Source: an uncultured Clostridia bacterium
GTDB lineage: Bacteria; Bacillota; Clostridia; Christensenellales; Borkfalkiaceae
Reading direction: 5' to 3'
Assembly (NCBI GenBank): GCA_947626105.1
Contig: CANQQY010000008.1
Span: 1 to 58,428 of the forward strand
DNA length: 58,428 nt
Below the pieces are notes generated by a model, which searched no databases, had not been told where the DNA came from, and saw nothing but the letters and a program-made list of their open reading frames with translations. Numbering within the stretch: the stretch's first letter is position 1; every line of letters begins with the position of its first letter. Positions 33,201 through 58,428 of this stretch are shown here, in pieces. The translations under genes were made by a program, and so were the position numbers.

Positions 33201-34064
33201 ACCTACGACCCGAAGAGCGTCTACGGATACGAGGCGACCTTCTACGTCTCCCGCCTTCTGAACGTTCTCACGGCGAAGAGCTCCAAAAACGACATTTTCT
33301 CGGGCGAAGATTTCGAGAACACGATGATCTCCGACGGCGCGATCGTCAAGGTAAACGTGACGATGTGCACCGCGCGCGACCAGATCATCGAGGGCGTGAG
33401 CATCACGACCAAGGACGGGGAGCTCTCCAAGGAAGAAAAGAACGCGCTCATCAATACGAATTGCGTGAATTTCACCCAGGCGGGATTCTATCTGTTCACC
33501 GTCACCGTTACGGTGGGTGGCGAAAGCGTCGAATCCAGCTATGCTATCCAAACATTCGTCTCGTCCTATAAGGGGAACTCCCTTATCGCGAACTATGGGC
33601 AGGGCGTGATCAACGGCGCGGGCTTCGGGCTCCGCCTCGATGAGTACGGCAGAGCGTATCTCTCTTCCGGAGAAGTGATTTACAGCGGCACGTTTACGAT
33701 CGCCCAAGACAACCGTTCTTTCATTGTCAAGGCGTATAACGAAAACGGCGGATATGTGAGCGCGAAGGGGACCGTCCTCGCGGAAGGGATCATCCGCGTG
33801 GATTGCTCGGGCACCCTCCACTATTCCGATTACTTTGTGATCGGTTCGAGCTCCGTCGCAGGGACGAGCGGATATGTGCTCCGCAGATTTGTTTCGGGAA
33901 GCAATACCGTCTATGTCGCCTGCACGAGCGACAAGACAGTCGGCGAAGTCGTTACCGTTACGGCGGAAGGCGACATCTACACCATCACGCAGGGCGACAG
34001 CGTGCGCCGTGCGCGGATCGTTTGGGGCAGCGCCTCAAGCGGGATCACCTTCCTCGAAGGTTGA
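30231..34064 (+). CDS. Large surface lipoprotein with tandem bacterial Ig-like domains
   Basis: 1277 residues. Lipobox FSAC (Cys22) and a polar linker with KEKEVVVAAVE. Residues about 45-620 contain at least six Ig-like units of 75-90 residues, each with a pattern like DLTTLFTIRQGDEEIPVTIDM ending in a Gly-Thr-Tyr-Thr-Val strand. An acidic linker (EEEEEDDGEGGGWGDEYD, about 627-645) is followed by repeated beta-rich modules of about 100-150 residues that share the pattern Y-x-G-x-(I/L)-x-A with the next, larger lipoprotein. No enzyme motif is visible. Ribosome site AAGGAGG. It probably extends from the cell surface and binds a substrate or partner (inference). Confidence 0.8.
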   Translation: MKRLIKLLSLLCVMLALVFSACGGDPSPATGDEPGDQQGSGNGQEEGKEKEVVVAAVESSVQIKDEEVSSYDFTSLFTITVDGEKKDVLASYLDLSALSEAAGTYTVTCNYEGKNASVSVTVVATVYTLTLSVEEVTLKVSAVEGTDFLNYFTAQKDGVKDTITQDMVENTVRAEVGDYAVTVTYHGESKTLTVHVVSDHSVEVVLSYEHPEVPENALEDFDAASLFSLYIDGVAVEVTGEMLTVEGLDGASAGGTFTVELNYSANRITAAKSVTVSVTEARQIVITPKNIETYPNAEEIDLTTLFTIRQGDEEIPVTIDMIEGVIDYSKAGENNIVLTYGGVSATAVVTVRMGVIIDYAHSDAVQVKVGTDMETYPFADDFIVVINGARYLRIPDSCFDLSEVNFAEEGTYTATLTIRYGDQPSGNTFPPKFPEPQLVTKTITYVVVAAQYDLSVKEEFVKLPKGTTSYDPTSNLALTIDGYKQSFTTRRDYADGITVYYEALTEIDFSSPEVQTVRLALYINGTGSEPVEVEYELQVETEIVIEAKDGIAFTGETLYTRDLFTVTENGEAVEDVQEYISGKVDTFKPGVYFVSINYKGLTAECKVVVYRRDFIGTYRTSLTTIPVEEEEEDDGEGGGWGDEYDTDWTSAPADVMPIAETAPTPLGGLTINADGSIRFNGISVDSITGIDENTMILHTGTNGTGRDYTLHYENGIVVLEVENSIRLKYSDYARPLVYFHEDLWAMQEKLTVNDTSSYILQSHSAGHFSMDMTRLKSKTDGSELWFALYVKVLENLSSNTSYAVEWGEVTFEGDYSKEIGAENTIFFNGTAYHFAMKDATTGQTVAVNSQPYRNTTFTGSIDGKEATLVVNASNWYQLYVGTGLILQVLPNDLGNMKHGGERADGKVHLYKLNDETYGTYSYLFTLDPEAKTFVLEERDSVYGVYRRGNMLLFLDGYGTGNFYENYSTTSFSSTEVTYTLKNGELHLGFETYDPKSVYGYEATFYVSRLLNVLTAKSSKNDIFSGEDFENTMISDGAIVKVNVTMCTARDQIIEGVSITTKDGELSKEEKNALINTNCVNFTQAGFYLFTVTVTVGGESVESSYAIQTFVSSYKGNSLIANYGQGVINGAGFGLRLDEYGRAYLSSGEVIYSGTFTIAQDNRSFIVKAYNENGGYVSAKGTVLAEGIIRVDCSGTLHYSDYFVIGSSSVAGTSGYVLRRFVSGSNTVYVACTSDKTVGEVVTVTAEGDIYTITQGDSVRRARIVWGSASSGITFLEG

Positions 34065-34164: not shown

Positions 34165-37100
34165 ATGAAAAAGAGGAGAGTACTTGCCCTTATCGCAATG
34201 CTCTGCATGCTGGTTGCCGCGATCTGCGGCGTTGCGGCGTGCGACAGCGATGAGCACACCCACTCCTACGGCGAATGGACGATCACCCAAGAGCCTACGT
34301 TGGAGTCGGGAGGAAAGGCAACGCACAAGTGCACGGAAGACGACTATTCCGAAGAAGTCGACATTCCCGCACTCAGCGACGCGCTTTGGACAAAGAGCGT
34401 CAAGACTCCCGCGACGCACGCGAGCGGAGGCGTAGATACCTACACCTCGGCGTACGGCAGCGTGGATGTTGATTCCGCGAAGCTCACCGAGCACACGTGG
34501 GGCGCATGGTCGATCACCCAAGATCCCACGCTCACGGCGGGCGGCAAGGCGAAGCACACCTGCACGTTGAACGACGGCGGCGAAGATGAGATCGACATCC
34601 CCGCCCTCAACGACGCTTCCGTCTGGACGAAGGACGAGGAGGCTTCCACGCCCGCAACGCACACCGTGCCCGGTACCGACGTTTACACTTCCGTCTACGG
34701 CGAAGTGGAAGTTGAGGTTCCCGTGACCGGCGAGCACAGCTACGGCGCATGGACGATCACCCAGGATCCCACGCTCACCACGGGCGGCAAGGCGAAGCAC
34801 ACCTGCACCCTCGGCGACAACCATGAGGAGGAGATCGACATCCCCGCCCTCAATGACGCAGAGGTCTGGACGAAGGACGAGGAGGCTTCCACGCCCGCAA
34901 CGCACGCCGCGACGGGCACAGACGTCTATACGTCCGTTTACGGCAGCGTGAACGTCACGACCGATAAGCTCGCCGAGCACACATGGGGCGCATGGGAAAT
35001 CACCCAAGATCCCACGCTCGAAGCAGGCGGCAAGGCGAAGCACACCTGCACGTTGAACGACGGCGGCGAGGAGGAAAAAGATATCCCCGCCCTCAACGAT
35101 GCAGATGTTTGGACGAAGGATACGGAAAATTCCCACCCCGCAACGCATACCGCACCCGGCACCGACGTCTACAAGTCCGAGTACGGCACTGTGGAAGTCG
35201 AGATCCCCGCGAAGAGCGACGAACATCAGTGGAGCGCATGGAGCTGGAAGGACGGAACGGAGCCTACCGAGGAAACGGGGGCTACCGCGACGCGTTCCTG
35301 CGAGATCGCAGAGTGCAACGAAACAGAAGAAAAGACTGTTCCCAATTTGAAGGATGCTTCCGTTTGGGAATGCGACGAGACCCCCGCGACCTACAACGGG
35401 AAGGGCAGCAAAGTCTATACCTCGGAGTACGGCACGGTCACGGTGGAGACCGCAAAACTTGTCGCCCCTTACGACGGCAAAACCTATCATCAAATCGATA
35501 TCAAGGTTCAGGAGAATCAGTTCAACGGAACGCTCTCCGTCGGCAACAACTGGCAGCAAGCCTCCCTCACGCTTGACGAAAACGGCGTCGGCCTCGGGAC
35601 GGCATATCCTTTCAGCAACAACACCAAGATCGCCTTTACGATGGTCGATCCGGAGACGGGCAAGATCTCGATCTCCTTTACGAGCAAGGCGGCAGAGGAT
35701 GCAGAGGACGCAGAGGACGCTTTCACGGGCGAAGTCAAGACCGTGACGGGTTATGTCGATATGGCAACCGGATTTGTCCTCATGGCATACAACGGTGAGG
35801 ACTTCACCGAATGCTATCTTCTTACCCCTTACGGGCAATACAGCAGCGGGGCAACCGCTTCCGTCTGGGGCGAGAGCGCGCTCAACTATGGCATTGCGCT
35901 TTCCTATACCTACACGGATACGACCGAAAAGACCGAGACCCTCTACATTTCCGACAGCGGCGTCGCTTTCGGCGTCACGTTCACCGATCTTGCGGGAGCA
36001 GCCGTCAAGGCGGAGAATTGCTACAATGCCGCACAGCTCTACATCAAGAAGGGCGAAACCGTTTTGGCGAGCCTCGGCTATAACGGTGAAACGATGGTCG
36101 CCCTCGACGGCTATGAAGGCGAATATGAGGATGCAACGCTTGGCAAGGTCACCCTTTCGGGCGTCGGAACATTGACGGCCTCCAAGGACGACGTTCAGTC
36201 CACGGGTACTTATACGATCGCGGGCGAGAATACCCTCGATCTCCTTGTGACGACGGAAGGCGCAACGAAGTCTTATACAGCCACCGTCGTAAAGGCAGAT
36301 AAGTCCATGACTGCAACCGAGGCAAAAGTCACCGTCTCCTTCAATATGAATGATCACGGGACGCAGGAAGCGCAGGAAGGCTATAAGAACGTCGAAATGA
36401 CTCTGCCCGAACCCGCAGAAACGGATGGAATGCTCTTCCGCGGCTGGTTCCTCGAAGAGGGTTGCACGACGCCCGTTCCCGATCCCTTCAAACCCTCGGA
36501 GGACGTCACGCTCTACGCAAAGTGGGTCGAGAAGCTCACCGTCAAAGTGCATGCGCTTCCCGATCAAAGCACATCCGAGGAACTTGAAGTCGGCGTCGGC
36601 GACAATATCCTCGAATCCTTGCAGAAGTATGATACTTCCGTGAAGGACGGCAAGGTGTTCAAGGATTGGTATACGTTGAGCGGCGAGGATAAAGTCTATC
36701 TTAGCAGTTATCCCGAGTCCGTGTATTCCGCCGAAAACGACAATATGGATCTGTACTCCGAATGGGAAAGCGCTCCCTACGCGGGCGACTATAAAGGATC
36801 CGAAATTTACAATGCGGGCTACGGTTCATCGGCAGTCAACATTACGATCGGCGAAGATGGTAAGATCTCCGGATCCAAGACCGGTACTGTCGATGATTAC
36901 AATGAAGAGACGCAGATCATCACATGGACGGATTCGAACCAGAAAACCAATTACTTCTTCTTTGACGCGAAGAGCGGCGTTCTCGCGTATAATGAGAGCG
37001 GCTCAACGTACCAGTATTTGGGCAACGATATGTATGTGTTGAGCAAGTACGCTACCGCAAACGACATCAAAGATAAGTTTGGCGTTCAGGCGAGCTCGAA

Positions 37101-40100
37101 GCACGATAGCAGCAGAGGTTGGTACGCTCAATTCGTCGAGATCGAAACGAGCTCCGGCAAAAAGAGTGTTTTCATCTACGATACGCACATTTATTCGGAT
37201 GTGACGATCACAGACGCATTCGGTTCCCCGCTTGCAGTCAGTGCGATCGCAGGATCCAAGACGGTCGTCGTAAAGGATTCGGACGAAGAGATCTTGCTGA
37301 AAGTTGCCTCTCAGGGCGAAACTTTCAAAGCACAAAGCAGTACCGTCGACCTCGATGAGTATTTCGGCACCTACACCAAAGCGGATTCCGACGATCTTAC
37401 GCTCGACGGCATCGGCAATCTTGTTTTGGGCGACAAGAACGGTACCTACAAGGCGGCTCCCGAGGGCTCCTCGTACACCTTCGACGCATACATCACCGAG
37501 GGCGAAACGCAGGTCTATTATGAACTGACGGTCGATCTCGTCGAGAAGAACTACACGCTCGATAAAATCATGGTCAACGTGACGCTCAATAAGGGCGGCC
37601 ACGGCGGCGACAACGAGACGAAGTCTTACAATAAGAATGTTGAGTTCACCTTGCCCGTCCTTTCGGACGAAGCAGGCGAATATCTCTTCCGCGGCTGGTT
37701 CTCCAATGAGGACTGCACGCTCGAACTTGAAAAGGACGGCGATAACTACGTCTATGCGCCTGCGGAAGACGGCACGACCGTCTATGCAAAGTGGGTGAAG
37801 AAGGTCACGATCACCGTTCATCTCGGCGACGCGACCCTTCCCGAGGGCTCGCTCGGCGCAGACGGCAAGATCGATACTTTCGGACAGGGCGAAGAAGTCA
37901 CGCTTGCCCGTCCTTCCAAGGAAGGCAGCAAGTTCGAAGGCTGGTTCAAGGATGATTCGTTTGAGAACCCTTGGGGCGAAATGGACGGAGAAGGCAATAC
38001 CGCCGTTACGCTCGGCGACGACGTCACAACGCTCGATCTCTATCCGAAGTGGGGCGAAGCTCCCGCTTATACCGGCGAGTATCATGTCTACTTCTACGAA
38101 GGCTCCAATGCAAACGGTGGCGCTGCAAACGGCAAGATCCAGAGCGGCACCTACAAGATCGATGCCGAGGGCTTCGCGCCCGCACCTTCGGGCGTTGCAT
38201 GGCCTCTCAACATGGATGCGACGGTCGGCTACACTTCCGAAGCGGATGCCGAGGACTCCGTCCGTGCGCTCACCCTTACCCGCTCCAACGGAACCAACGA
38301 AGCATTCATCGACCTCACGTCGAAGATCATCGTCATCAACCTGAGAGGAACCGGCTTTACAACTGTTGTTGTTCTTGTCCCCGTAGACAAGGAAGTCACC
38401 GAAGCAGACTCCTATTGGAATGAGGGCAACCAGCGTGCGATTACGTTCAGCGGCGAGGAGACCACGTCGATCTTCATCAACAACGGAACGATCCACTTCG
38501 GCGTAACCCTCGAGGATAAGGACGGCGGCACAGTCGCAGCCGACCAGGCATATCAGGCAGAACGTCTCTATGTCAAGAAGGATGGCGCGAATGTGGAAGG
38601 GATCAAGGGCTTCGGCTTCAACGGCACCACCATGAAGGAGCTCGACGGCAAGGAAGGCGACTACACCTACGCAGGCGATGCGGGCGGCGAGCTCGACTTC
38701 GGCAAACTCACGGTCAATGGCGTCGGCGGCGTTACGACCGAGAAGAAGGGCAAGGGTACCTATACGCTCGTCAGCGGTCAATCCTACACGGCAGAACTTC
38801 GTCTTGAAGGTTTGTTCTACTACCTCACCCTCACGTTGAACCCCGAAAACTATACCTATACCGTTGAAAAGCCCATGGCGACGGTCACATTTGAATTGGT
38901 CGACGGCACCGACGATCAAAAGAACGGAAAGACGCTCACAAGCTCGAACGACTTCCCTGAAAGTGCACAGTATAACCTTAATACTGAATTCACGCTTGAA
39001 CAAGTTCCCGAAGTCGATGGCTATGTATTCCGCGGCTGGTATACCGCCAAGGGCAATTGGTATTCGAGCGAAGAGCTCAACAAGGACGGCGACGGCAACT
39101 ACGTCTATACGCCTACCGCCAAGACCGTTACCCTCTATGCGAAGTTCGAACAGAAGATCACGATCACCATCCACTACGGCGCAGATATGGGCGGCGATGT
39201 TGTGATCGAGCTTGCCAAGGGTGAATCTGTCGACGATATCCGCGACACATGGCCCGGCGAACCCGGTATTACAAACGGCAAGCGCTTTGTCGGCTGGTAC
39301 AAGGATGCTTCCTATGAGACCGAGTGGAACGATGATTACCCTGTCCAGGAGAGCATCGAAATCTACGTGAAGTGGGAAGAAATTCCCGAAATCGACTACG
39401 TCACGAGCGGAAGCAACAAGTGGACGTACGACGAAGCAAGCACAACTTGGAAGAGCGCAACTCCGTCGAGCTATCCCTATGAATCCAAGATGACGATCAC
39501 TTTCGCTTATAGCGGAACCTACTCCTTCGATTGGACGCTCGATTGCGATACCGATGCAGGCGCTACGATCAAGTGGCAGCATGCCGACGGTACTTCGACG
39601 ACGACGATTTTGAGCGAAAAAGGCTCGGGGTCTGCAAGTTCAAAGAAGACGGGCAATATCTCCAAGGAAGTCAAGGCGGGCGATTCGTTTGTCCTGACAT
39701 ACACGAGAGATTCTAACTCTTGGGATGTCGGCGAAGACTGCATGAAGATCAGTAACATCGTCTGGACAAAGGACGTTCTCGATGGGTTCGAAGGCACCTA
39801 TGCGGGCGAAAAATCGGATGAATCTATCAAAAATCAAGAGCTTGAGCTGGACGGCAAGGGCGGCGCTTCGTGGGTAGGCAGGACGGGCAAATATACCGTC
39901 AAAGAGTCTCCCGAAAACACCATCGAACTTTACCTTGACGCAGAAGGCGAAAAACCCGCAGAGTACTGGGTCATCACCCTCACCAAGGGCGAATCTACCT
40001 ACACGGCCGAAAAGCCCATGGTGAAGATCACCTTCGAAACGGACAACGAAGCGGTTAAGGTGGATCCCGTTGAGTACAACAAGAACATTCCCGTAAAACT

Positions 40101-40848
40101 TCCCGTGCCCGAGAGTGACGTCGGCGTATACACCGGTTGGTACACGAACAATGCCTGCACCGAGGAATATGCGGTCGAACTCGATGAGCAGGGCATGTAC
40201 ACGCCCACGGAAGAGACGACCCTCTACACGAAGATCACTTCGGAAGAAGTGACGCTTACGATCGACTACGGCGAACACGGCCCCGAGCAGAACAAGACGG
40301 TGAAATTGGCAAAGGGCGAGACCCCGGAACTTACCGAGTATGAACCCGAACCCGATAACGGATTTGTCTTTGACGGTTGGTACGAGGATGAGGATTGCCT
40401 GACGCCCTATACTCCCGCTCCCCTGAACGAGAGCAAGACGATCTACGCTAAGTGGAAGGCGGAAGAGGAAAAACCGTATACGATCGAGGCAACCCATACT
40501 CCCGGTCGTAGCGACATCACTTGGGTAGAGGGCCCGAGCGGCACTTGGAGAATCGACACGAGCAGGAGCAGTGTCTACGGGATCCTCAAGATCACATTCA
40601 CAAAAGCGGGGACGTTCTCGTTCGATTATGAAGCTCAGATCAGCGATCCTGGTGAGTGGGGTGACTGTGCGGAGGCACTGTTGAATGCGGATCCTACGGC
40701 GCAGGGATGGCATTCCAGTGCCATAAGAACAGGTTCGGGAAGCAAGTCTTTCACCGTGAATGAAGGCGATACGGTTTATATCGCAACAATCGTTATAAGC
40801 GGCGGTTCCGGTGACTTCATGCAGGTTTCCAACTTCCAGCTTGTATAA
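34165..40848 (+). CDS. Giant repeat lipoprotein with five N-terminal repeats and InlB-type repeats
   Basis: 2227 residues. Lipobox GVAAC (Cys26). Residues about 33-435 hold five copies of an approximately 81-residue repeat (GAWTITQDPTL...KHTCTL...DIPALNDA...TGTDVYTS). The rest alternates beta-rich modules with at least eight InlB B-repeat-like units (for example FRGWFLEEGCTTPVP...LYAKW), mostly in pairs, and ends with two related C-terminal domains (about 1745-1875 and 2105-2227) that resemble carbohydrate-binding jelly rolls by their aromatic/Gly pattern only. No anchor besides the lipid is seen, and there is no LPXTG. AAGGAG precedes the ATG and a strong terminator follows. Adhesion or substrate binding is likely. 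Confidence 0.83.
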   Translation: MKKRRVLALIAMLCMLVAAICGVAACDSDEHTHSYGEWTITQEPTLESGGKATHKCTEDDYSEEVDIPALSDALWTKSVKTPATHASGGVDTYTSAYGSVDVDSAKLTEHTWGAWSITQDPTLTAGGKAKHTCTLNDGGEDEIDIPALNDASVWTKDEEASTPATHTVPGTDVYTSVYGEVEVEVPVTGEHSYGAWTITQDPTLTTGGKAKHTCTLGDNHEEEIDIPALNDAEVWTKDEEASTPATHAATGTDVYTSVYGSVNVTTDKLAEHTWGAWEITQDPTLEAGGKAKHTCTLNDGGEEEKDIPALNDADVWTKDTENSHPATHTAPGTDVYKSEYGTVEVEIPAKSDEHQWSAWSWKDGTEPTEETGATATRSCEIAECNETEEKTVPNLKDASVWECDETPATYNGKGSKVYTSEYGTVTVETAKLVAPYDGKTYHQIDIKVQENQFNGTLSVGNNWQQASLTLDENGVGLGTAYPFSNNTKIAFTMVDPETGKISISFTSKAAEDAEDAEDAFTGEVKTVTGYVDMATGFVLMAYNGEDFTECYLLTPYGQYSSGATASVWGESALNYGIALSYTYTDTTEKTETLYISDSGVAFGVTFTDLAGAAVKAENCYNAAQLYIKKGETVLASLGYNGETMVALDGYEGEYEDATLGKVTLSGVGTLTASKDDVQSTGTYTIAGENTLDLLVTTEGATKSYTATVVKADKSMTATEAKVTVSFNMNDHGTQEAQEGYKNVEMTLPEPAETDGMLFRGWFLEEGCTTPVPDPFKPSEDVTLYAKWVEKLTVKVHALPDQSTSEELEVGVGDNILESLQKYDTSVKDGKVFKDWYTLSGEDKVYLSSYPESVYSAENDNMDLYSEWESAPYAGDYKGSEIYNAGYGSSAVNITIGEDGKISGSKTGTVDDYNEETQIITWTDSNQKTNYFFFDAKSGVLAYNESGSTYQYLGNDMYVLSKYATANDIKDKFGVQASSKHDSSRGWYAQFVEIETSSGKKSVFIYDTHIYSDVTITDAFGSPLAVSAIAGSKTVVVKDSDEEILLKVASQGETFKAQSSTVDLDEYFGTYTKADSDDLTLDGIGNLVLGDKNGTYKAAPEGSSYTFDAYITEGETQVYYELTVDLVEKNYTLDKIMVNVTLNKGGHGGDNETKSYNKNVEFTLPVLSDEAGEYLFRGWFSNEDCTLELEKDGDNYVYAPAEDGTTVYAKWVKKVTITVHLGDATLPEGSLGADGKIDTFGQGEEVTLARPSKEGSKFEGWFKDDSFENPWGEMDGEGNTAVTLGDDVTTLDLYPKWGEAPAYTGEYHVYFYEGSNANGGAANGKIQSGTYKIDAEGFAPAPSGVAWPLNMDATVGYTSEADAEDSVRALTLTRSNGTNEAFIDLTSKIIVINLRGTGFTTVVVLVPVDKEVTEADSYWNEGNQRAITFSGEETTSIFINNGTIHFGVTLEDKDGGTVAADQAYQAERLYVKKDGANVEGIKGFGFNGTTMKELDGKEGDYTYAGDAGGELDFGKLTVNGVGGVTTEKKGKGTYTLVSGQSYTAELRLEGLFYYLTLTLNPENYTYTVEKPMATVTFELVDGTDDQKNGKTLTSSNDFPESAQYNLNTEFTLEQVPEVDGYVFRGWYTAKGNWYSSEELNKDGDGNYVYTPTAKTVTLYAKFEQKITITIHYGADMGGDVVIELAKGESVDDIRDTWPGEPGITNGKRFVGWYKDASYETEWNDDYPVQESIEIYVKWEEIPEIDYVTSGSNKWTYDEASTTWKSATPSSYPYESKMTITFAYSGTYSFDWTLDCDTDAGATIKWQHADGTSTTTILSEKGSGSASSKKTGNISKEVKAGDSFVLTYTRDSNSWDVGEDCMKISNIVWTKDVLDGFEGTYAGEKSDESIKNQELELDGKGGASWVGRTGKYTVKESPENTIELYLDAEGEKPAEYWVITLTKGESTYTAEKPMVKITFETDNEAVKVDPVEYNKNIPVKLPVPESDVGVYTGWYTNNACTEEYAVELDEQGMYTPTEETTLYTKITSEEVTLTIDYGEHGPEQNKTVKLAKGETPELTEYEPEPDNGFVFDGWYEDEDCLTPYTPAPLNESKTIYAKWKAEEEKPYTIEATHTPGRSDITWVEGPSGTWRIDTSRSSVYGILKITFTKAGTFSFDYEAQISDPGEWGDCAEALLNADPTAQGWHSSAIRTGSGSKSFTVNEGDTVYIATIVISGGSGDFMQVSNFQLV
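34261..35224 (+). repeat. Five-copy direct repeat of about 243 nt within the 2227-residue lipoprotein
   Basis: Units begin at the His codon preceding (T/S)-(W/Y)-G-(A/E)-W at 34261, 34492, 34735, 34978 and 35224 (spacings 231, 243, 243 and 246 nt). Units 2-4 share long stretches of nearly identical DNA (for example GGCAAGGCGAAGCACACCTG), which indicates recent unit duplication; the first and last units are diverged. Confidence 0.88.
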
Positions 40849-50505: not shown

Positions 50506-51141
50506 ATGGAAGAGGCGAAAAGCGAAAAATCGGAAGCGCTCCGCGCATATCTTCCCGCGATCGTAGCGGGCTTGCTCACGCTTACCACGGTAATACTATA
50601 TTCAACCGTCATCGAATGGCGGTGGTGGAGCGTATATCTGGCAATGGCGATCATGACGCTCGTCCCGTTTGCCATTATATTTGTCAACCGTAAGTGGGCA
50701 TTGGGGCTTCCTCAATATCTCATCATACTGTTTTGCGTGCATACGGTGCTGTCCGTCGATATGGGGACGGCTTTGGGCTTTTACGGAAAGTGGAAGTGGT
50801 GGGATACCGCCGTGCACTGCTTTTTCGGATTTTTGGCTTGCGCAACGCTGTATTACCTCTACTTCCGTCTCAAAGACGACCGTCCGAAGGCGGTCGATTA
50901 TATCGTCATGGTGCTTCTCGTGATCTCCTTTGCGGCGATCTGGGAGGTCTATGAGTTTGTCGCCGGAGCGATCCTCGACAGCGATATGCAGGACGTAAGA
51001 GCATTGATGGAGCAGGGACTCAACCCTATTACCGACACGATGGTCGATATCGTCGTCGCATTCGTCGGCTCTCTTCTCTTTTTGCTGTTTCTGTATTTGA
51101 AATATCTGTTTGTCAAGAGAAAGAATCGGCAAAACCGTTGA
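50506..51141 (+). CDS. Small polytopic membrane protein, YjdF/DUF2238-like
   Basis: 211 residues from 50506, where GAGGGG lies just before the ATG; an in-frame ATG at 50467 has no ribosome site. Six hydrophobic segments. The motifs GFYGKWKWWDTAVHCFFGFLACATL, split by helices, then AIWEVYEF and DTMVDIVVAFVGS recall the conserved Asp/His/Glu pattern of DUF2238 (E. coli YjdF), whose function is unknown. Recognition is by motif only. It is followed by a good terminator, so it likely forms a two-gene unit with the MarR regulator. Confidence 0.72.
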   Translation: MEEAKSEKSEALRAYLPAIVAGLLTLTTVILYSTVIEWRWWSVYLAMAIMTLVPFAIIFVNRKWALGLPQYLIILFCVHTVLSVDMGTALGFYGKWKWWDTAVHCFFGFLACATLYYLYFRLKDDRPKAVDYIVMVLLVISFAAIWEVYEFVAGAILDSDMQDVRALMEQGLNPITDTMVDIVVAFVGSLLFLLFLYLKYLFVKRKNRQNR

Positions 51142-51212
51142 GCCGATTGTGCGGCGATTTGTTCTGCTTAAAGAAAGCAAAATACTTTAATCTTTTGGAA
51201 TACATTGAAAGC

Positions 51213-51238
51213 GGGGACGATTAGTCCCCGTTTTTTTC
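51213..51238 (+). terminator. Rho-independent terminator upstream of the ESCRT-like operon
   Basis: CGGGGAC-GATTA-GTCCCCG followed by seven T. It insulates the downstream operon from readthrough. Confidence 0.93.
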
Positions 51239-51313
51239 GTAGAAAAACATTTAACTCAATCTGGTAATAAGGTCGAAAACAAAAAAATCCACCGGTGACT
51301 TTTTCCCGAAAGA

Positions 51314-51343
51314 TTGACATAAACAGATGGGTTGTGTTATAAT
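51314..51343 (+). promoter_or_regulatory. Sigma-A promoter for the ESCRT-like operon
   Basis: TTGACA, 18 bp, TATAAT, both boxes perfect. The transcript would start near 51350, giving a roughly 97-nt, very A/T-rich leader before the first gene. No operator or attenuator hairpin was recognised in it. Confidence 0.85.
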
Positions 51344-51446
51344 TATTTTGGAATATTCAGTAAGAATTTGTCGCTTTTCATAATACCAAATAAATAGAGA
51401 AAAAATTAAAATATATTTATATTATAGTTTGGGAGGAAAACAAAAA

Positions 51447-52049
51447 ATGCAGCAACAGAAATTTATCACATCCCACAGAGAACGTGTCGAGAGGGCGAAA
51501 CGGCTGATTGAACCGTTGCCCGAACATATTTCGATCTTCGACAGGGAAGCGTTCGTCGAATTTTTCTTACTGGAAGATATCGAGCGTCTGTACCGCTACC
51601 GCTACGAAAAGGTAAAAAGCAGGAATCCGACGACGCGCGAGGGAATTTTTTCCCAAAAGAAACAGCTTGAGAAAATGCACTACCTCATCTATATGTTAAC
51701 TAGCTGCATTGAGGTATTGAATGGAAAAATCGACGTGGGCGCCTATTCCGATGTTTGGAAAGCGATCCACGAACATCAGCTCAAAGTTGCGGCGGGGAAC
51801 ATGAAATACCTCGATCAGCTTGTCAAGATGACAGAGTCCATGCTCAAAGATGTGGATGAAGAGGCGCTCGATGCGGCGCATAAGATGTTGGAAGCGGGGG
51901 AGTTCATGAATGAACTTGAAGCACATGACGCCAACGTCCGTAGTTTGAGAGGCATCCCCGAATATGAGGAGGTCAATGTCGTCATTGATCCTGCGGATGC
52001 GGACAAGAGTAACAAAAATAGTACAAAGTACAAGCCCGATTTGAACTGA
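51447..52049 (+). CDS. ESCRT-III-like (Snf7/CHMP-like) helical protein A
   Basis: 200 residues, almost all predicted helical. The ATG at 51447 has GGGAGG 10 nt upstream; a TTG at 51429 in the same frame overlaps the ribosome site and is rejected. Residues about 20-130 give long amphipathic helices (SQKKQLEKMHYLIYML, then GKIDVGAYSDVWKAI) and a fourth helix LVKMTESMLKDVDEEALDAA; the C-terminal 40 residues are disordered and charged. It shares GAY(S/T) and KDxD spacings with the next protein. Length and helix order fit ESCRT-III subunits, which polymerise on membranes and present a C-terminal MIT-interacting tail, but this is remote similarity judged by eye. No signal peptide or membrane helix. 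First gene of the operon. Confidence 0.6.
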   Translation: MQQQKFITSHRERVERAKRLIEPLPEHISIFDREAFVEFFLLEDIERLYRYRYEKVKSRNPTTREGIFSQKKQLEKMHYLIYMLTSCIEVLNGKIDVGAYSDVWKAIHEHQLKVAAGNMKYLDQLVKMTESMLKDVDEEALDAAHKMLEAGEFMNELEAHDANVRSLRGIPEYEEVNVVIDPADADKSNKNSTKYKPDLN

Positions 52050-52075
52050 AAAAATATTAAAGGAGAAAATAAATT

Positions 52076-52687
52076 ATGGCAAAGAAAACGAACGACGAAA
52101 AAATCATTGCGGCGATGGACTCGCTTGATAGTGCGGTGAGAATGCTCGAAAAGTACGGCGTAATGTATAATGAGTATATTGACAGCGCCGCACTTCGCGG
52201 CAATGACGCAAAGGCAAAGCAACTCATCAAGCAGAAACACCGGGTAGATGCACTTGCGGAACAGCTTGGTACGTTAAAAGAAAATATCAGGCTCGGCGCA
52301 TATACCGCGCAGGCCATTTCGCAACTCGGGAAGCTTCCCGAAGCAATCGCGGGATGTAAGGGACTTCTTGCCGAAACCCCCGATTTCACGAAACTCGGAA
52401 AGAGCATCACGGCGATCTTCAAAGACATGGACAAGTCAGAATCTGAGATTGCCAAACTCAACGAAATTCTCAATCCTCAGCCCGTGGACACCATCGCAAG
52501 CCGTCTCGACGGCACAAACAGCTCCGAAGAGGAGAACACCGATTGGTTTAAGGCCGAATATGCGGCAATGCTCGAGCGGATCAAGCCGAAGATCGCTCCC
52601 GAGACGGTGGCCAAACCCGACTTCGACGGCTTGACGGGCGATATCGACTACGAGGGTATCATCCAAGACGAAAAGAAGAAGAAATAA
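52076..52687 (+). CDS. ESCRT-III-like (Snf7/CHMP-like) helical protein B
   Basis: 203 residues, start preceded by AAAGGAG. Predicted helices: about 8-40 (IIAAMDSLDSAVRMLEKYG), 44-105 (GNDAKAKQLIKQKHRVDALA and GAYTAQAISQLGKLPEAIA) and 108-135 (KLGKSITAIFKDMDKSESEI), then an acidic tail with TDWFKAEYAAMLERIKPK and a basic end. The order short basic start, long helical hairpin, central helices, acidic C-terminal tail is that of CHMP1/Vps24-like ESCRT-III proteins, and the hairpin tip (RGNDAKAKQL) resembles the KGDYEGAR-type tip of CHMP1. Its stop is 3 bp from the AAA ATPase start. PspA/Vipp1-type ESCRT-III proteins are alternatives but are longer in helix 1-2 and have no ATPase partner. Confidence 0.62.
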   Translation: MAKKTNDEKIIAAMDSLDSAVRMLEKYGVMYNEYIDSAALRGNDAKAKQLIKQKHRVDALAEQLGTLKENIRLGAYTAQAISQLGKLPEAIAGCKGLLAETPDFTKLGKSITAIFKDMDKSESEIAKLNEILNPQPVDTIASRLDGTNSSEEENTDWFKAEYAAMLERIKPKIAPETVAKPDFDGLTGDIDYEGIIQDEKKKK

Positions 52688-52690
52688 GCT

Positions 52691-53896
52691 ATGGCAGAAG
52701 CTAGCATGATGGGAGTATTCAACTCCAAAGTTTCCTCTTTCAATGAGGCGGTCAGAGCGCAGGACGCGGAGACCATTTCCGAGATCGGTGCGGAGTTGCT
52801 TCGCATCGGGTTTGATGAATGCGTCAAGCCGAACGTCGGGACAGGCCTGAAAGAGACCTATCGCAAGCAGTGTCTCTCCGTGATATCCTATCTTGCGAAA
52901 CTCACCCGTACCCCCGCCGTGCCCATACATTCGGGCGCGGCGAATGAGGGGAGCGATCCTTACTATGCCCCGCAGCAGTGGTTTTCGGATGAAGCGCCCG
53001 ATCTTGGCTTCAAGGACATCATCGGCGTACAGGAGGTAAAGGACGCTTTCATGGTGGACGTTGTTGCGCCTCTCCGTCCCGAATTCCGCGATATCTACCG
53101 CAAATTCAGGGGGGAGCAGCTCGGTGCACAGCTTCTCCTTTATGGCCCTCCCGGCACGGGCAAGACGCATATCGTCAAATGCCTCGCAGGCGCCCTCAAT
53201 TGCAAGATCGCAGTCGTTCAGACGAGTGAAGTGCTCGCATCTGTCGTCGGAGTCGCGGAGAAGAATATCCGCGACATCTTCGCACAGGCAGCTGAGCTCA
53301 ACCGCTGCATCATCTTTTTCGATGAGATCGACAGCATCTGCGCCGACCGCGATTCAGAGGACAGCCGCCACACAAAATCCATTCTGACGACTCTGCTCAC
53401 TTGCATGGACGGGTTCATGAAGACCAAAAGAGAAGGACAGCTGCGCATCATTGTCGCGGCGACCAATCTTCCCTGGAAGCTCGACGCCGCCCTGAAACGC
53501 GGTGGCAGATTTGAAACACAGATTTATGTCCCTCTTCCCGATGAGAATGCAGTCAAGAAGTTCGTCGGCATGTATCTCGGGAAACTTCCCCATGACGATA
53601 ACGTCACCGTCGATGCTTTGGCGGCAAAGCTTGAGGGATATTCCGGCGCCGATATCAAGGCCGTCATGAAACAAGTCGCAAACCGCCCTCTTGAGAGAGA
53701 GGTCAAAAATGTTCTGAACGAGAGGATCGGAAGACCTCTTGGAGAGCGAGTGACGATGCGCGACTGCGACGAAGTCATAAAAAAATACATAAACAGCGTG
53801 ACTCCGGAGATGCTTCTCCGCTTTGAAGCATATAACCGCGGCATGCCTTTCGAGACATTTCTCGAACTTTTGAAGCAAACAAAATCCGATCAATGA
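52691..53896 (+). CDS. Vps4-clade AAA ATPase with MIT-like N-terminus
   Basis: 401 residues. N-terminal helical domain (about 8-75): ends in LKETYRKQCLSVISYLAKL, matching the third helix of MIT domains (KESIRAKCxxYLxxAxKL type). AAA core: Walker A GPPGTGKT (152-159), Walker B FFDEID (Asp211, Glu212), pore-like segment VLASVVGVAEKNIRDIF, and the meiotic-clade sensor segment ATNLPWKLDAALKR followed by IYVPLPDENA. The arginine-finger region reads R270-GG-R273-F instead of the usual RRF of Vps4. The C-terminal helix VTPEMLLRFEAYNRGM also fits Vps4-like enzymes. Vps4 remodels ESCRT-III polymers; the two genes just upstream are the natural substrates. Overlaps the protease start by 4 bp. Confidence 0.82.
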   Translation: MAEASMMGVFNSKVSSFNEAVRAQDAETISEIGAELLRIGFDECVKPNVGTGLKETYRKQCLSVISYLAKLTRTPAVPIHSGAANEGSDPYYAPQQWFSDEAPDLGFKDIIGVQEVKDAFMVDVVAPLRPEFRDIYRKFRGEQLGAQLLLYGPPGTGKTHIVKCLAGALNCKIAVVQTSEVLASVVGVAEKNIRDIFAQAAELNRCIIFFDEIDSICADRDSEDSRHTKSILTTLLTCMDGFMKTKREGQLRIIVAATNLPWKLDAALKRGGRFETQIYVPLPDENAVKKFVGMYLGKLPHDDNVTVDALAAKLEGYSGADIKAVMKQVANRPLEREVKNVLNERIGRPLGERVTMRDCDEVIKKYINSVTPEMLLRFEAYNRGMPFETFLELLKQTKSDQ

Positions 53897-54939
53897 TGCT
53901 TACGAAAAAACAGATCACAACATTATTTTATAACGCGAGGGAACTCGTGCGGTTGAACAGACCGCGCGACGCGCGTTCTTATGTCTTGATTTTACTCGAT
54001 AGTGCACTTGAAAGCTATAAAAGGGCTTCGACGATTCTCGCAAAAGCGAAGATGGGGGCCTTTCTCGACCGCTGGATCGCCGTCTCACGGGAACTGTATG
54101 CCAAAGGGGTTACGGATTTTGTGCGCGAAAGTTTCGGTCTCCCTATAACAAATGATGCGCAGAAGACGGAACCCGTTCCCGTTGCGCCGCCCAAGCCCGC
54201 ACCGTCGGATAACGCTCCGCCGCTTCCCGGAACATTGTCCGAGCGTCCGAAAGAACTTCCCAAAGGCGAGAACGATATTGATTATTCCGGTCTGATCGAG
54301 GAGACGAAAGAGACGCAGGGTCTGTGTGCGGAAGTGTTCGAAAGAAACAAAGGCGCGGTTGCGGAGATCCATGTGATCGGAAACGGAAAGGCCGCAAGCG
54401 GCACCGGATTCGTCATTTCCGAGAAAGGATATCTCCTTACGAACGATCATGTGGTTTTTGACGAAGACAACGGAGGCTACTTTCCCAAAATTTCGATGAA
54501 ACTTTGCGGCGGGGAGAAAGGGCATCGGCTCGAAGTGTTGTTTTCCGATAAAAAAACCGATATCGCGCTCTGCAAATTCGATCCCGAGGAAGTCGGCAAG
54601 TGTGCTTGTGTAAAGCGCATTGCCGACTATTCGTCGTTAAAACAGGGCGCCGATTGCATTTTGATCGGAAACGGCTTCGGCATGGGGCTCGCTCCGTTTT
54701 CCGGCGAGGTGCGGTATACGAGGGATGACGACGGAAATTTGGTCCATACTGCGCCTTCCAACCCCGGCGATTCCGGTGCACCCGTATTCAACCGCAAGGG
54801 GGAGTGCATCGGCATAAACAAATCCAAGACGGTGCGCGTCAACGAAGAGACCGCCGACGGGATCGCCAACGCGACCCCGATAGATACCGTAGAAGAACTC
54901 CTGGCCAAATGGTGCAGCCATAATAAGATCGAACTGTAA
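53893..54939 (+). CDS. Trypsin-like serine protease with MIT-like N-terminus, cytosolic
   Basis: 348 residues, no signal peptide or membrane helix. N-terminal domain (about 5-85) is helical (NARELVRLNRPRDARSYVLI, then LDSALESYKRASTILAKA) and resembles an MIT domain in helix spacing. A Pro-rich linker (VPVAPPKPAPSDNAPPLPG) separates it from a trypsin/HtrA-type protease (about 140-345) with triad His186 (TNDHVV), Asp223 (KTDIALCKF) and Ser294 (NPGDSGAP) and the oxyanion sequence GDSGAPVFNRKGECIG. No PDZ domain. MIT-plus-protease is the layout of eukaryotic calpain-7, whose MIT domains bind ESCRT-III. Starts inside the stop of the ATPase (ATGA). It may be recruited to, and activated on, the ESCRT-like polymer (inference). 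Confidence 0.8.
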   Translation: MMLTKKQITTLFYNARELVRLNRPRDARSYVLILLDSALESYKRASTILAKAKMGAFLDRWIAVSRELYAKGVTDFVRESFGLPITNDAQKTEPVPVAPPKPAPSDNAPPLPGTLSERPKELPKGENDIDYSGLIEETKETQGLCAEVFERNKGAVAEIHVIGNGKAASGTGFVISEKGYLLTNDHVVFDEDNGGYFPKISMKLCGGEKGHRLEVLFSDKKTDIALCKFDPEEVGKCACVKRIADYSSLKQGADCILIGNGFGMGLAPFSGEVRYTRDDDGNLVHTAPSNPGDSGAPVFNRKGECIGINKSKTVRVNEETADGIANATPIDTVEELLAKWCSHNKIEL

Positions 54940-54950
54940 GAGGGAAAAAC

Positions 54951-57900
54951 ATGAAGATCCAAGAGGCAATCAATAGAATCGAAAATGTTCTGCATAGAGA
55001 AACTTCGAAATATCCGCAACTGAACGACGACGAGGCGAAGTCACGCCTTGTATCGGCGAAAAAGGGTCTCGAAGCGATCAAGGAGTCGTCTCTTGAGAAG
55101 GGGGAGCTCTTAGTCCCTCAAGCACTCGCAAATCTTCTTAACGACATGAGCGCAGTTACTCCTGAAAGAGCAACCGATATTGATTTTGCCGTTACCGCAT
55201 GGCGGAGAAACAGGGATATAGATCTCGGAAAGGATAGAGGTGCCGACATGAAAGGGAAATCAAAGAAACCCATTCGGAAGAATCCATTTTTTTGGGTAAT
55301 TTTCTGTATTTTTGTTCTGATGATCGTCTTTGCTTTTGTGGCGGCATTTATCCCCGAAGACAAAATCCCGAAATGGGTCACGTTTGTGTTTTCTCCTATT
55401 GGGATCGTTGCGGGTCTTATTCAATTGGCTCTTGCTCTTCGTGAATGGAAGAGCGATATGCGGCACGGGGAAGAGGGATCGAAGATACAAGACGGGGTCT
55501 CTTCTGACATTTCGGTTCAGATAGACGACCATAGAAAGTTTGATGACCATAGCAAGCATGACGATCATTCAAAGAGGGTCACCATCAATGGGAACGTTTA
55601 TATTAATAAAGGTTTTTTAATATTAGCTATCGTTGCCATTTTATGCGTTACCGCATTAGGGATCGTCGCTATGGTAATCTCTGCGAACAGAGAAAAGTTC
55701 GCCCCGGCAAGTACGCCCGGCACAACGAACGGATCGCAGTTTCCCGACGATTCTTCCGCAGGGAAGACACCGGACAACCCCCTGATCGAATATGAAGGGT
55801 TTGACGTCATCATCAATGACGATGGGGAAACCGTGACCGTAAGCATAAACACGCAGAAAGACGGAACAGAAGTTGAATTTCCAACTTATATCCAAAAGAA
55901 CGGAAAGGTGTATCGTGTGACGGCAGTCGGAAAAGCGGGGCTTACAAGAAATGATAAAATACGATCTGTCAACCTTTCCACATCGATCGAAAGAATAGAG
56001 AGCGGAGCCTTTGCCAATTTTTCGGCTCTCAAGGAAATTTCCGTTCCCGACAGCGTGACTTATATCGGGCAAAGCGCCTTTTTGGGCTGCACAGCTCTGA
56101 AAACGGTCAATGCAGACAGTCTCAAAGCATGGTATGAAATCGAATTCGACGGGGAAAACAGCAATCCTCTTTCTCCGAATGTCGATTCGGCCTTAACAAT
56201 CGCAGGCAAACCGATCACGGGAGAGCAGACCATAGAAGGCGTCAGTATCATCCCCGCTTATACCTTCCAAAATTCCGCAATCACCCAAGTGACCCTTGAG
56301 AGCGGCGTGACCAAGATCGGGAAGAACGCTTTTTTCAACTGCACACAGCTTACGACGGTGTGGAATAAAAGCGAACTCAATATTGAAAAGAGCAGTACGG
56401 AAAACGGATACGCCGGCTATTACGCAGAACATATTTATAAGGTCGATTTGGAGACGGGACGGATCGCAACGGACGACGGCTTCCTCTTTGATGAAGGCGA
56501 TGAGCCGACTCTTGTCGGATACAGCGGTTCCGCCGAAACGTTGATTCTCCCTGCCGCTGCCCCGCATGGGTCGACTTATGTAATTGCCAATGACGTCTTT
56601 CGGGACAATGCAAGCATTAAAAGCGTCACAATTCCCGAAAGTGTGACGGGTATCGGATACGCCGTGTTTCACGGTTGTGCAAACATAGAGAGTATGACGT
56701 TACCCTTTATAGGATTTTCTACTACCGGTGGGGTTCAAGGATATAGCGGTACAGCCGAGTTCATTGATCCGATAGGTTATTTATTTGGCTTATGGTCTTA
56801 TGATGGAGGGGTCGCTGTCGAGCAGAGTCATTGGGGTAAGTATATCAGTGGCGATAAGGCGGGCAAGGAAGGGCATTTCTCTCAAACTTACTTTATTCCC
56901 GCATCTCTTAAGAACGTAACGGTACTTGGGGGAGAGATATGTGACGGTGCATTTTATGAGTGTGAAAATATTGAGAGCGTGACTATTGGAAACGCCGTGA
57001 CTTCGATTGGAGATCATGCGTTCTATGATTGTAGCTCGCTTGAAAATGTAACATTCGGAGAGAATATCACATTGACTGAAATCAAAAACTCTGCGTTCTC
57101 GAATTGCAGTTCGCTTGCAAGCATAGAGATCCCCGCAGGCGTGACCTCAATTGGGACTGATGTGTTCCATGGTTGCAGTTCACTTACAAGCATTGAGATT
57201 CCCGAGGGCGTGACATTGATTGGCGACTTCGCGTTTTATGACTGCGAATCATTGGTGAGTATCGTGATCCCTGAGAGTGTGGCATCGATTGGAAGATGGG
57301 CGTTCTCTTGTTGCTATCACCTTATGGAAGTATGGAATTATTCCGATCTACCGATTGAAAAAGGAAAGTCAGACTATGGTTATGTAGCATATTACGCAAA
57401 GCAAGTTTACACAACGAATGAAGCGAGTAAGCAGACGGTGACAAACGATGGATATATCTTCTACGAAGACAGCGAAGGATCCTATTTGATTGGCTATCAA
57501 GGAGACAAAACATCTCTTACGCTTCCCGCAACAAGCCCGAGCGGGAAAGCCTACGCGATCAATGAATATGTGTTCTATGGTTGCAGTTCACTTACAAGCA
57601 TAGAGATTCCCGAGGGCGTGACATTGATTGGCGACTTCGCGTTTCATGACTGCGAATCATTGGTGAGTATCGTGATCCCTGAGAGTGTGACATCGATTAG
57701 AAGATGGGCGTTCTCTTTTTGCAGTTCACTTACGAATATTGTGATTTCAGAGGGCGTGACTTCGATTGGGAGTTTTGCGTTTGAGGGTTGCAGTTCACTT
57801 GAAAGGATTGAAGTAGAGCCCGGGAATGCCAAATATCACGCAACGGGGAATTGTTTGATTGAGACGGAGAGTGGGATCTTACTTTTGGGTTGTAAATCAA

Positions 57901-58428
57901 GCACGATTCCAAAAGATGGCAGCGTGACCTCGATTGGGGATCATGCATTCTCTGGTTGCAGTGCGCTCACAAGCATTGTGATTCCAGAGGGCGTGACTTC
58001 GATTGGAGATCATGCGTTCTATGATTGTAGCTCGCTTGAAAATGTAACATTCAGAGAGGGTAGCACATTGACCTCGATTGGAGATTATGCGTTCTCGAAT
58101 TGCCGTTCGCTTACAAGCATAGAGATCCCCGCAGGCGTGACCTCAATTGGGACTAGTGCGTTCGATGGTTGCCGTTCGCTTACAAGCATTGAGATTCCCG
58201 AGGGCGTGACATTGATTGGAGAAGGGGCGTTCTATGGGTGCAGTTCGCTTACGGATATTGAGATATCCGCGAGCGTGACATCGATTGGAGAAGGGGCGTT
58301 CTATGGGTGCAGTTCGCTTACGAATATTGAGATTCCCGAGGGCGTGACATCGATTGGAGAAGGGGCGTTCTATGGGTGCAGTTCGCTTACGGATATTGAG
58401 ATATCCGCGAGCGTGACATCGATTGGAG
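54951..58428 (+). CDS. Three-pass membrane protein with large extracellular BspA-type leucine-rich repeats, 3' end outside the window
   Basis: At least 1159 residues, no stop before base 58428. Start ATG 54951 with GAGGG upstream, 11 bp after the protease. Residues 1-105: cytosolic, helical (INRIENVLHRETSKYPQLND), no family recognised. Membrane helices at about 113-134, 142-163 and 220-243. Between the second and third is a cytosolic loop rich in His/Asp (DDHRKFDDHSKHDDHSK). From about 270 a BspA/LRR_5 array runs off the window (AFYGCSSLTSIEIPEGVTSIG type, 23-residue units), interrupted twice by an LRR-associated module (NIEKSSTENGYAGYYAEHIY; LPIEKGKSDYGYVAYYAKQ). Hence the LRRs should face outwards and the N-terminus inwards. 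It could link surface recognition to the cytosolic ESCRT-like/protease complex (inference). Confidence 0.85.
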   Translation, partial: MKIQEAINRIENVLHRETSKYPQLNDDEAKSRLVSAKKGLEAIKESSLEKGELLVPQALANLLNDMSAVTPERATDIDFAVTAWRRNRDIDLGKDRGADMKGKSKKPIRKNPFFWVIFCIFVLMIVFAFVAAFIPEDKIPKWVTFVFSPIGIVAGLIQLALALREWKSDMRHGEEGSKIQDGVSSDISVQIDDHRKFDDHSKHDDHSKRVTINGNVYINKGFLILAIVAILCVTALGIVAMVISANREKFAPASTPGTTNGSQFPDDSSAGKTPDNPLIEYEGFDVIINDDGETVTVSINTQKDGTEVEFPTYIQKNGKVYRVTAVGKAGLTRNDKIRSVNLSTSIERIESGAFANFSALKEISVPDSVTYIGQSAFLGCTALKTVNADSLKAWYEIEFDGENSNPLSPNVDSALTIAGKPITGEQTIEGVSIIPAYTFQNSAITQVTLESGVTKIGKNAFFNCTQLTTVWNKSELNIEKSSTENGYAGYYAEHIYKVDLETGRIATDDGFLFDEGDEPTLVGYSGSAETLILPAAAPHGSTYVIANDVFRDNASIKSVTIPESVTGIGYAVFHGCANIESMTLPFIGFSTTGGVQGYSGTAEFIDPIGYLFGLWSYDGGVAVEQSHWGKYISGDKAGKEGHFSQTYFIPASLKNVTVLGGEICDGAFYECENIESVTIGNAVTSIGDHAFYDCSSLENVTFGENITLTEIKNSAFSNCSSLASIEIPAGVTSIGTDVFHGCSSLTSIEIPEGVTLIGDFAFYDCESLVSIVIPESVASIGRWAFSCCYHLMEVWNYSDLPIEKGKSDYGYVAYYAKQVYTTNEASKQTVTNDGYIFYEDSEGSYLIGYQGDKTSLTLPATSPSGKAYAINEYVFYGCSSLTSIEIPEGVTLIGDFAFHDCESLVSIVIPESVTSIRRWAFSFCSSLTNIVISEGVTSIGSFAFEGCSSLERIEVEPGNAKYHATGNCLIETESGILLLGCKSSTIPKDGSVTSIGDHAFSGCSALTSIVIPEGVTSIGDHAFYDCSSLENVTFREGSTLTSIGDYAFSNCRSLTSIEIPAGVTSIGTSAFDGCRSLTSIEIPEGVTLIGEGAFYGCSSLTDIEISASVTSIGEGAFYGCSSLTNIEIPEGVTSIGEGAFYGCSSLTDIEISASVTSIG
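57171..57717 (+). repeat. 139-nt near-identical direct repeat within the LRR region
   Basis: 57171-57309 and 57579-57717 differ at about four positions (offset 408 nt). They encode two LRR units (GCSSLTSIEIPEGVTLIGDF and the following unit). Intervening sequence encodes the LRR-associated module. The near identity indicates recent duplication or gene conversion. Confidence 0.85.
58215..58421 (+). repeat. Three exact-phase 69-nt LRR repeats at the window edge
   Basis: Units at 58215, 58284 and 58353 each encode 23 residues (IGEGAFYGCSSLT...). The first and third are identical over all 69 nt and the second differs at only a few positions. A fourth unit begins at 58422. This points to active expansion and contraction of the array. 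Confidence 0.9.

Follow-up and report, generated by a model that had tools for sequence, protein, structure and literature searches.

A bacterial gene cassette with a predicted ESCRT-III-like subunit, a Vps4/katanin-like ATPase and enzymes that carry a common peptide motif

A 58,428-nt stretch of DNA from an uncultured Clostridia bacterium of the order Christensenellales (hereafter the window) ends in a five-gene cassette, which on balance probably encodes a cytosolic, membrane-proximal machine of the endosomal sorting complex required for transport (ESCRT)-III/Vps4 type, whose effectors would carry a tag and whose membrane module varies. Gene 2 is predicted to specify an ESCRT-III-like subunit, gene 3 a Vps4/katanin-like AAA ATPase and gene 4 a serine protease. 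At other loci, a RuvB-like ATPase gene follows, and the protein has an N-terminal head homologous to that of the protease; both enzymes carry in their linkers the motif found on the gene 2 tail. This RuvB-like gene with its protease-homologous head and the motif common to the three proteins are new in this analysis. The initial annotation, made from the sequence alone, had proposed an ESCRT-like system with two ESCRT-III-like proteins and MIT-like heads on the ATPase and the protease, and it was partly supported: gene 2, the kinship of the ATPase and the conservation of the block stand, but gene 1 as ESCRT-III and the MIT heads were not confirmed.

Organization and conservation of the cassette

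The window is an entire contig (positions 1-58428) of a draft genome of 32 contigs and 1.64 Mb, so that gene 5 and anything beyond it are cut off because the contig stops at 58428. The cassette has the following features.

51314..51343, + strand: sigma-70-type promoter, TTGACA-18-TATAAT with TG before the second hexamer (12/12 consensus positions)
51447..52049, + strand: gene 1, all-helical protein, 200 aa from ATG (open reading frame list; homologues in 15/15 loci)
52076..52687, + strand: gene 2, predicted ESCRT-III-like subunit, 203 aa (Snf7 PF03357 profile, AlphaFold model, fold comparison)
52640..52672, + strand: C-terminal tail motif of gene 2, DIDYEGIIQDE (motif model and alignment)
52691..53896, + strand: gene 3, Vps4/katanin-like AAA ATPase with one AAA domain, 401 aa (Pfam AAA 4e-36, PDB, NCBIfam, residues)
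52709..52912, + strand: helical domain at the N terminus of the gene 3 protein, residues 7-74, at most MIT-like (human VPS4A/B MIT, profile alignment)
53893..54939, + strand: gene 4, trypsin/HtrA-like serine protease, 348 aa, triad His186, Asp223 and Ser294 (Pfam Trypsin_2 9e-19, NCBIfam Do/HtrA)
53896..54141, + strand: helical head at the N terminus of the gene 4 protein, with homology to the heads of RuvB-like ATPases at other loci (hhalign)
54274..54306, + strand: linker motif of gene 4, DIDYSGLIEET, at the head-protease junction (motif model, rank 12 of 259)
54951..58428, + strand: gene 5, ~100-aa cytosolic N-terminal part, three hydrophobic segments and BspA-type leucine-rich repeats; 1159 aa, open at the window end (Pfam LRR_5 2.9e-154, hydropathy)
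55296..55670, + strand: hydrophobic segments of gene 5 at residues ~116, 145 and 222 (hydropathy)

The five genes, their gaps (26, 3, -4 and 11 nt from gene 1 to gene 5) and the consensus promoter had been described initially and were borne out by the frame list and a promoter scan. The promoter is the best of six promoter-like sites within 51000-55000; in dinucleotide shuffles, sites of any quality number 3.4 on average. With the upstream TTG at 51429 as start, gene 1 would be 206 aa long.

Fifteen distinct loci from a genome sample and three further named contigs were compared (the window, L013-L023 and L025-L027). Genes 1-3 are present in order in all 15 and the gene 4 protease in 14, the exception being L023; a search of other genomes, as suggested in the initial annotation, has thus found the block conserved, and its recurrence makes it more than chance. 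The distribution of the cassette is patchy. Of 396 genomes sampled from the order, 12 (counting that of the window) were found in a search with the gene 2 protein; they belong to 8 of 142 genera and to 7 families, and within the window's genus, 2 of the 14 listed genomes have it. A profile search of the same 396 genomes returned the same 12 and one weak extra genome. This extra gene-2-like match (G323, locus L041, E 3.4e-5) lies in the window's own family. In the named collection, close relatives of gene 2 are found on four contigs of uncultured Clostridia bacterium, isolates Lapin. Beyond the order, a Snf7-like model matched 3 further genomes of 391 in the class and 1 of 398 in the phylum, all at E ~2e-4 and over part of the model only; these were taken for chance coiled coils and rejected, and by eye the short loci had no ATPase neighbour.

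Searches of plasmids, with gene 2, and of viral contigs gave no match. Gene 3 matches 48 phage records at less than 60% identity, several of which are annotated FtsH; the best of the 20 matches listed reach 33-35%. The gene upstream of the cassette is at most 50% identical within the genus. Integrase-like genes of one family of four stand upstream of gene 1 in L014, L015, L016 and L022 (by clustering, and by Pfam for L022), which is a hint of mobility.

The putative ESCRT-III-like subunit and its ATPase

Gene 2 is ESCRT-III-like as judged from profile matches and its predicted structure. The Snf7 profile (PF03357) is matched in register by 11 of the 15 gene 2 members (best E 2e-5; window copy E 0.0037) and by none of six reversed sequences; the family stays below the curated Pfam cut-off throughout, at best 24.7 bits vs 27.3. 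The AlphaFold model, with a mean pLDDT (predicted local distance difference test) of 67.8, has helices at residues 6-40, 44-84, 87-95, 105-131 and 156-173 and a tail helix at 192-202, laid out as an alpha1-alpha2 hairpin, alpha3, alpha4 and C-terminal regulatory helices. Fold comparison gave ESCRT-III in 19 of 50 rows, level with BAR and bMERB rows. A profile comparison with yeast Snf7 and fly Shrub was out of register (probability 1.2%, equalled by 1 of 60 shuffles) and was rejected.

Gene 1 had also been regarded as ESCRT-III, but this was not borne out: for 17 members, the 25 families listed out of 32 do not include Snf7, and an hhalign profile comparison with gene 2 reached only 0.5%. Its helices lie at residues 10-21, 30-57, 64-96, 100-106, 109-117, 119-136, 138-149 and 152-168. 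In the divergent loci L020-L023 gene 1 was assigned by position, and a profile comparison of this group with the closer gene-1 group gave a match at 94.2%. A second gene-1-like frame is present in L014, L018 and L023, and hydropathy gave one weak transmembrane call, in the gene 1 protein of L015.

Envelope repair by a PspA-type system such as bacteria are known to have, supplemented with an ATPase, is an improbable explanation of the cassette. PspA and Snf7 form one superfamily, and passages of PMC11237479 describe some bacterial PspA/Snf7 genes beside AAA+ genes; against this, no gene 1 or gene 2 member matched the PspA family among the families listed, and no classical Psp partner was found among 10 downstream proteins tested.

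By its sequence, gene 3 encodes an AAA ATPase that is Vps4/katanin-like without being a true Vps4. The signature of the meiotic clade reported initially, PW.LD.A.KRGGRFETQIY(V/I)PLPD, is kept in 15/15 homologues. Of the ATPase residues, GPPGTGKT is read in 14 of them (GPPGCGKT in L022), and DEID, the sensor Asn and both Arg residues in all 15. Among the matches listed, a Vps4 chain aligns with the AAA domain in a single stretch at 131.1 bits, as against 108.6 and 122.5 bits for the two domains of a Cdc48 chain; when the comparison is confined to the C-terminal 160 residues, the scores are 65.3 for Vps4, 64.6 for katanin mei-1 and 48.8 for the best single domain of Cdc48 type. Pairwise, the enzyme is therefore nearer to single-domain Vps4/katanin than to the single Cdc48 domains listed, while NCBIfam places CDC48 (176 bits) on top, above CdvC (156).

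Vps4 has an aromatic residue in pore loop 1 and a beta-domain insertion before the C-terminal helix. In the 15 gene 3 homologues, pore loop 1 holds no aromatic residue and reads SVVG, SIVG or NLVG, and the ~15 residues at the place of the beta domain leave no room for it. The MIT heads of the initial annotation were left unconfirmed. For 40 N-terminal pieces, the 25 families listed out of 28 do not include PF04212, and a PDB profile search lists no MIT for the head of gene 3 or of gene 4. The first 75 residues of gene 3 align without gaps to human VPS4A/B MIT over 68 columns, above 60/60 column shuffles in local and global mode, but at weak hhalign probabilities (3.0% and 0.6%); the local profile score of the gene 4 head was equalled by 8 of 60 shuffles. 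The enzyme is not called Vps4 here because it lacks the pore-loop aromatic, the beta domain and an MIT domain by Pfam.

Head and motif common to the protease and the RuvB-like ATPase

Gene 4 is a trypsin/HtrA-like protease, and its catalytic triad is present in 14/14 copies. It has no signal peptide, no PDZ match and, like gene 1 (apart from L015), gene 2, gene 3 and the RuvB-like gene, no transmembrane stretch by hydropathy. Its head, for which these searches listed no MIT, is instead homologous to the N-terminal domain of the RuvB-like ATPase (hhalign 97.8%, E 7.5e-13, 82 columns), whose gene lay beyond the view of the initial annotation. A match between the gene 3 (P3) head and the protease head was rejected by profile comparison (2.2%).

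The RuvB-like gene follows the cassette genes in 12/15 loci and encodes ~460 to 660 residues; the copy tested matched RuvB_N at 1.8e-16 and RuvB_C at 1.2e-14. In the three loci without it, the contig runs out 3.5 kb past the protease in the window, 0.2 kb past it in L016 and 3.2 kb past it in L020. No RuvB-like cassette gene was found elsewhere in the window's own assembly: the best match to the full model lacks the head (model positions 168-490), and a search with the head model gives gene 4 only.

The motif DIDYxGI(I/V)xEE on the gene 2 tail recurs in the linkers of both enzymes. A position-specific model, trained on eleven gene 2 tails alone, was run over the 259 proteins of the window and the loci. 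The training proteins take ranks 1-11, and ranks 12-25 are occupied only by linkers of proteases or RuvB-like proteins, rank 14 being RuvB-like by clustering; the first unrelated protein appears at rank 26 with 10.8 bits, whereas the window's protease reaches 21.3 bits. Scores above the maximum of 200 shuffled proteases (10.9) are attained by 10 of the 14 proteases. Ranks 1-28 hold 11/14 proteases and 5/12 RuvB-like proteins, counts that are not independent events, the loci being related. The proteases of L020, L021 and L022 rank low (58, 182 and 185).

The pairing of an ATPase with a protease also recalls the IetAS defence system, in which the AAA ATPase would unfold a target for the serine protease and genes 1 and 2 would be coiled-coil adaptors, not polymer subunits. 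The best PADLOC match of gene 3 is IetA (2.5e-38), the two enzyme genes are adjacent with a 4-nt overlap, and the patchy distribution and the integrases beside 4/15 loci fit such a system. However, the IetA match spans the AAA domain only, NCBIfam scores CDC48, CdvC and FtsH above IteA, gene 4 is trypsin-like and not subtilisin-like, and gene 2 matches Snf7 in register while reversed controls do not. We thus consider a system of this kind unlikely.

Somewhat more doubtful is a chaperone-protease or stress cassette, composed of a Cdc48-like ATPase, an HtrA-like protease, sometimes ClpP and Hsp70, and coiled-coil adaptors, and serving quality control of surface leucine-rich-repeat proteins. It agrees with the top NCBIfam models, CDC48 for gene 3 and Do/HtrA for gene 4, and with the ClpP (L027) and Hsp70 (L019) genes near the cassette, but ClpP-like and Hsp70-like genes occur in two loci each vs genes 1-3 in 15/15, and the Snf7 signal and the tail motif are left unexplained.

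Downstream genes, proposed mechanism and known systems

The genes downstream vary between loci. The leucine-rich-repeat membrane protein had been counted as a part of the cassette; its family is indeed present in 10/15 loci, but it is one of several variable downstream genes. Related segments with two transmembrane stretches, called by hydropathy only, occur in 8/15 loci (L013, L014, L015, L018, L019, L025, L026 and L027). Small proteins of ~100 aa plus two transmembrane stretches with a common FFIYE-like end were observed in L013 (4483-5187), L014 (5827-6462), L025 (12809-13438) and L027 (12886-13593), and the window has a comparable arrangement, fused there to leucine-rich repeats. Hsp70 in L019 and ClpP in L027 were assigned by Pfam, with one further clustered locus each (Hsp70 L023, ClpP L018). 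A family of 233-291 aa lies near five loci (L015 17213-17914, L018 16151-16855, L019 1477-2352, L025 17746-18618 and L027 17939-18805), and for the copy in L027 Pfam gave no hit at E 0.01. The window also holds very large frames at 17369-25153 (2594 aa), 34165-40848 (2227 aa) and 30231-34064 (1277 aa), the first of which clusters with the leucine-rich-repeat family of the cassette.

In the ESCRT-III/Vps4-type machine that we favour, gene 2, and possibly gene 1 too, would form a polymer, and the gene 3 ATPase would dock on the gene 2 tail and extract subunits. The protease and the RuvB-like ATPase would be brought as effectors to the same ATPase or polymer, because they have the gene 2 tail motif and a helical head in common. 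We infer a single reader for all three motif bearers, most likely the ATPase because it is present in every locus. The variable downstream membrane proteins, with leucine-rich repeats or two transmembrane stretches, may serve as anchors for the machine and probably also as envelope sensors. Its cellular role would most likely be that of a horizontally moving defence or envelope-stress cassette, with defence somewhat ahead. A bolder version, put forward tentatively, is that bacteria have an ESCRT machine which follows a recruitment code of its own: it would comprise an ESCRT-III-like polymer, a Vps4-like ATPase reading a DIDYxGI tag on the tail, and a protease and a RuvB-like motor as tagged effectors. 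This machine would have spread horizontally among gut Clostridia and be coupled to variable surface sensors, and assembly of the polymer at the membrane would trigger proteolysis.

Archaeal Cdv/ESCRT (CdvB-CdvC) and eukaryotic ESCRT-III/Vps4 resemble the cassette in pairing a helical, Snf7-like subunit, whose tail bears a conserved motif, with a single-domain Vps4/katanin-like AAA ATPase. In contrast to them, the cassette is bacterial, its ATPase is without pore-loop aromatic, beta domain and detected MIT, gene 2 is below the Snf7 cut-off, ESCRT-III likeness is seen for only one of the two small subunits, and a protease and a RuvB-like ATPase are added. The partner protease of IetA is subtilisin-like. 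The anti-phage system IetAS likewise places an AAA ATPase beside a serine protease, but the cassette protease is trypsin-like and genes 1, 2 and the RuvB-like gene come in addition.

PMC10936438 treats ESCRT-III/Vps4 pairs as archaeal and eukaryotic. Passages of PMC11237479 report bacterial members of the ESCRT-III superfamily, Snf7 or PspA, some beside AAA+ ATPases, and mention transfers of archaeal Vps4 to bacteria, so that the kind is known and the variant of the gene set is new. The systems described there differ: the transferred Vps4 is accompanied by a TPR/6TM protein where snf7 would stand, transporter genes are part of the Snf7-AAA+ operons, and trypsin has 0 occurrences in the main text, whereas the cassette has a trypsin-like protease. 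A full-text literature search, with bioRxiv and most subscription papers outside its scope, found no paper on this gene set.

For the proposed recruitment there is a eukaryotic parallel. Vps4 and other enzymes recognize ESCRT-III tails via MIT domains, and calpain-7 and spastin are such MIT-domain effectors. The cassette heads are not detectable MIT domains and its motif is not a canonical MIT-interacting motif, but in both cases several enzymes would be recruited to one polymer via a common helical head and peptide tails. If this holds, the cassette would offer a small, genetically movable model of effector recruitment by ESCRT-type machines, and with it one could test whether bacteria use ESCRT-type polymers for defence or envelope repair. 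PspA and Vipp1 are regarded as the bacterial relatives of ESCRT-III, and to these the cassette would, if true, add a Vps4/katanin-like partner and a tagged protease in bacteria.

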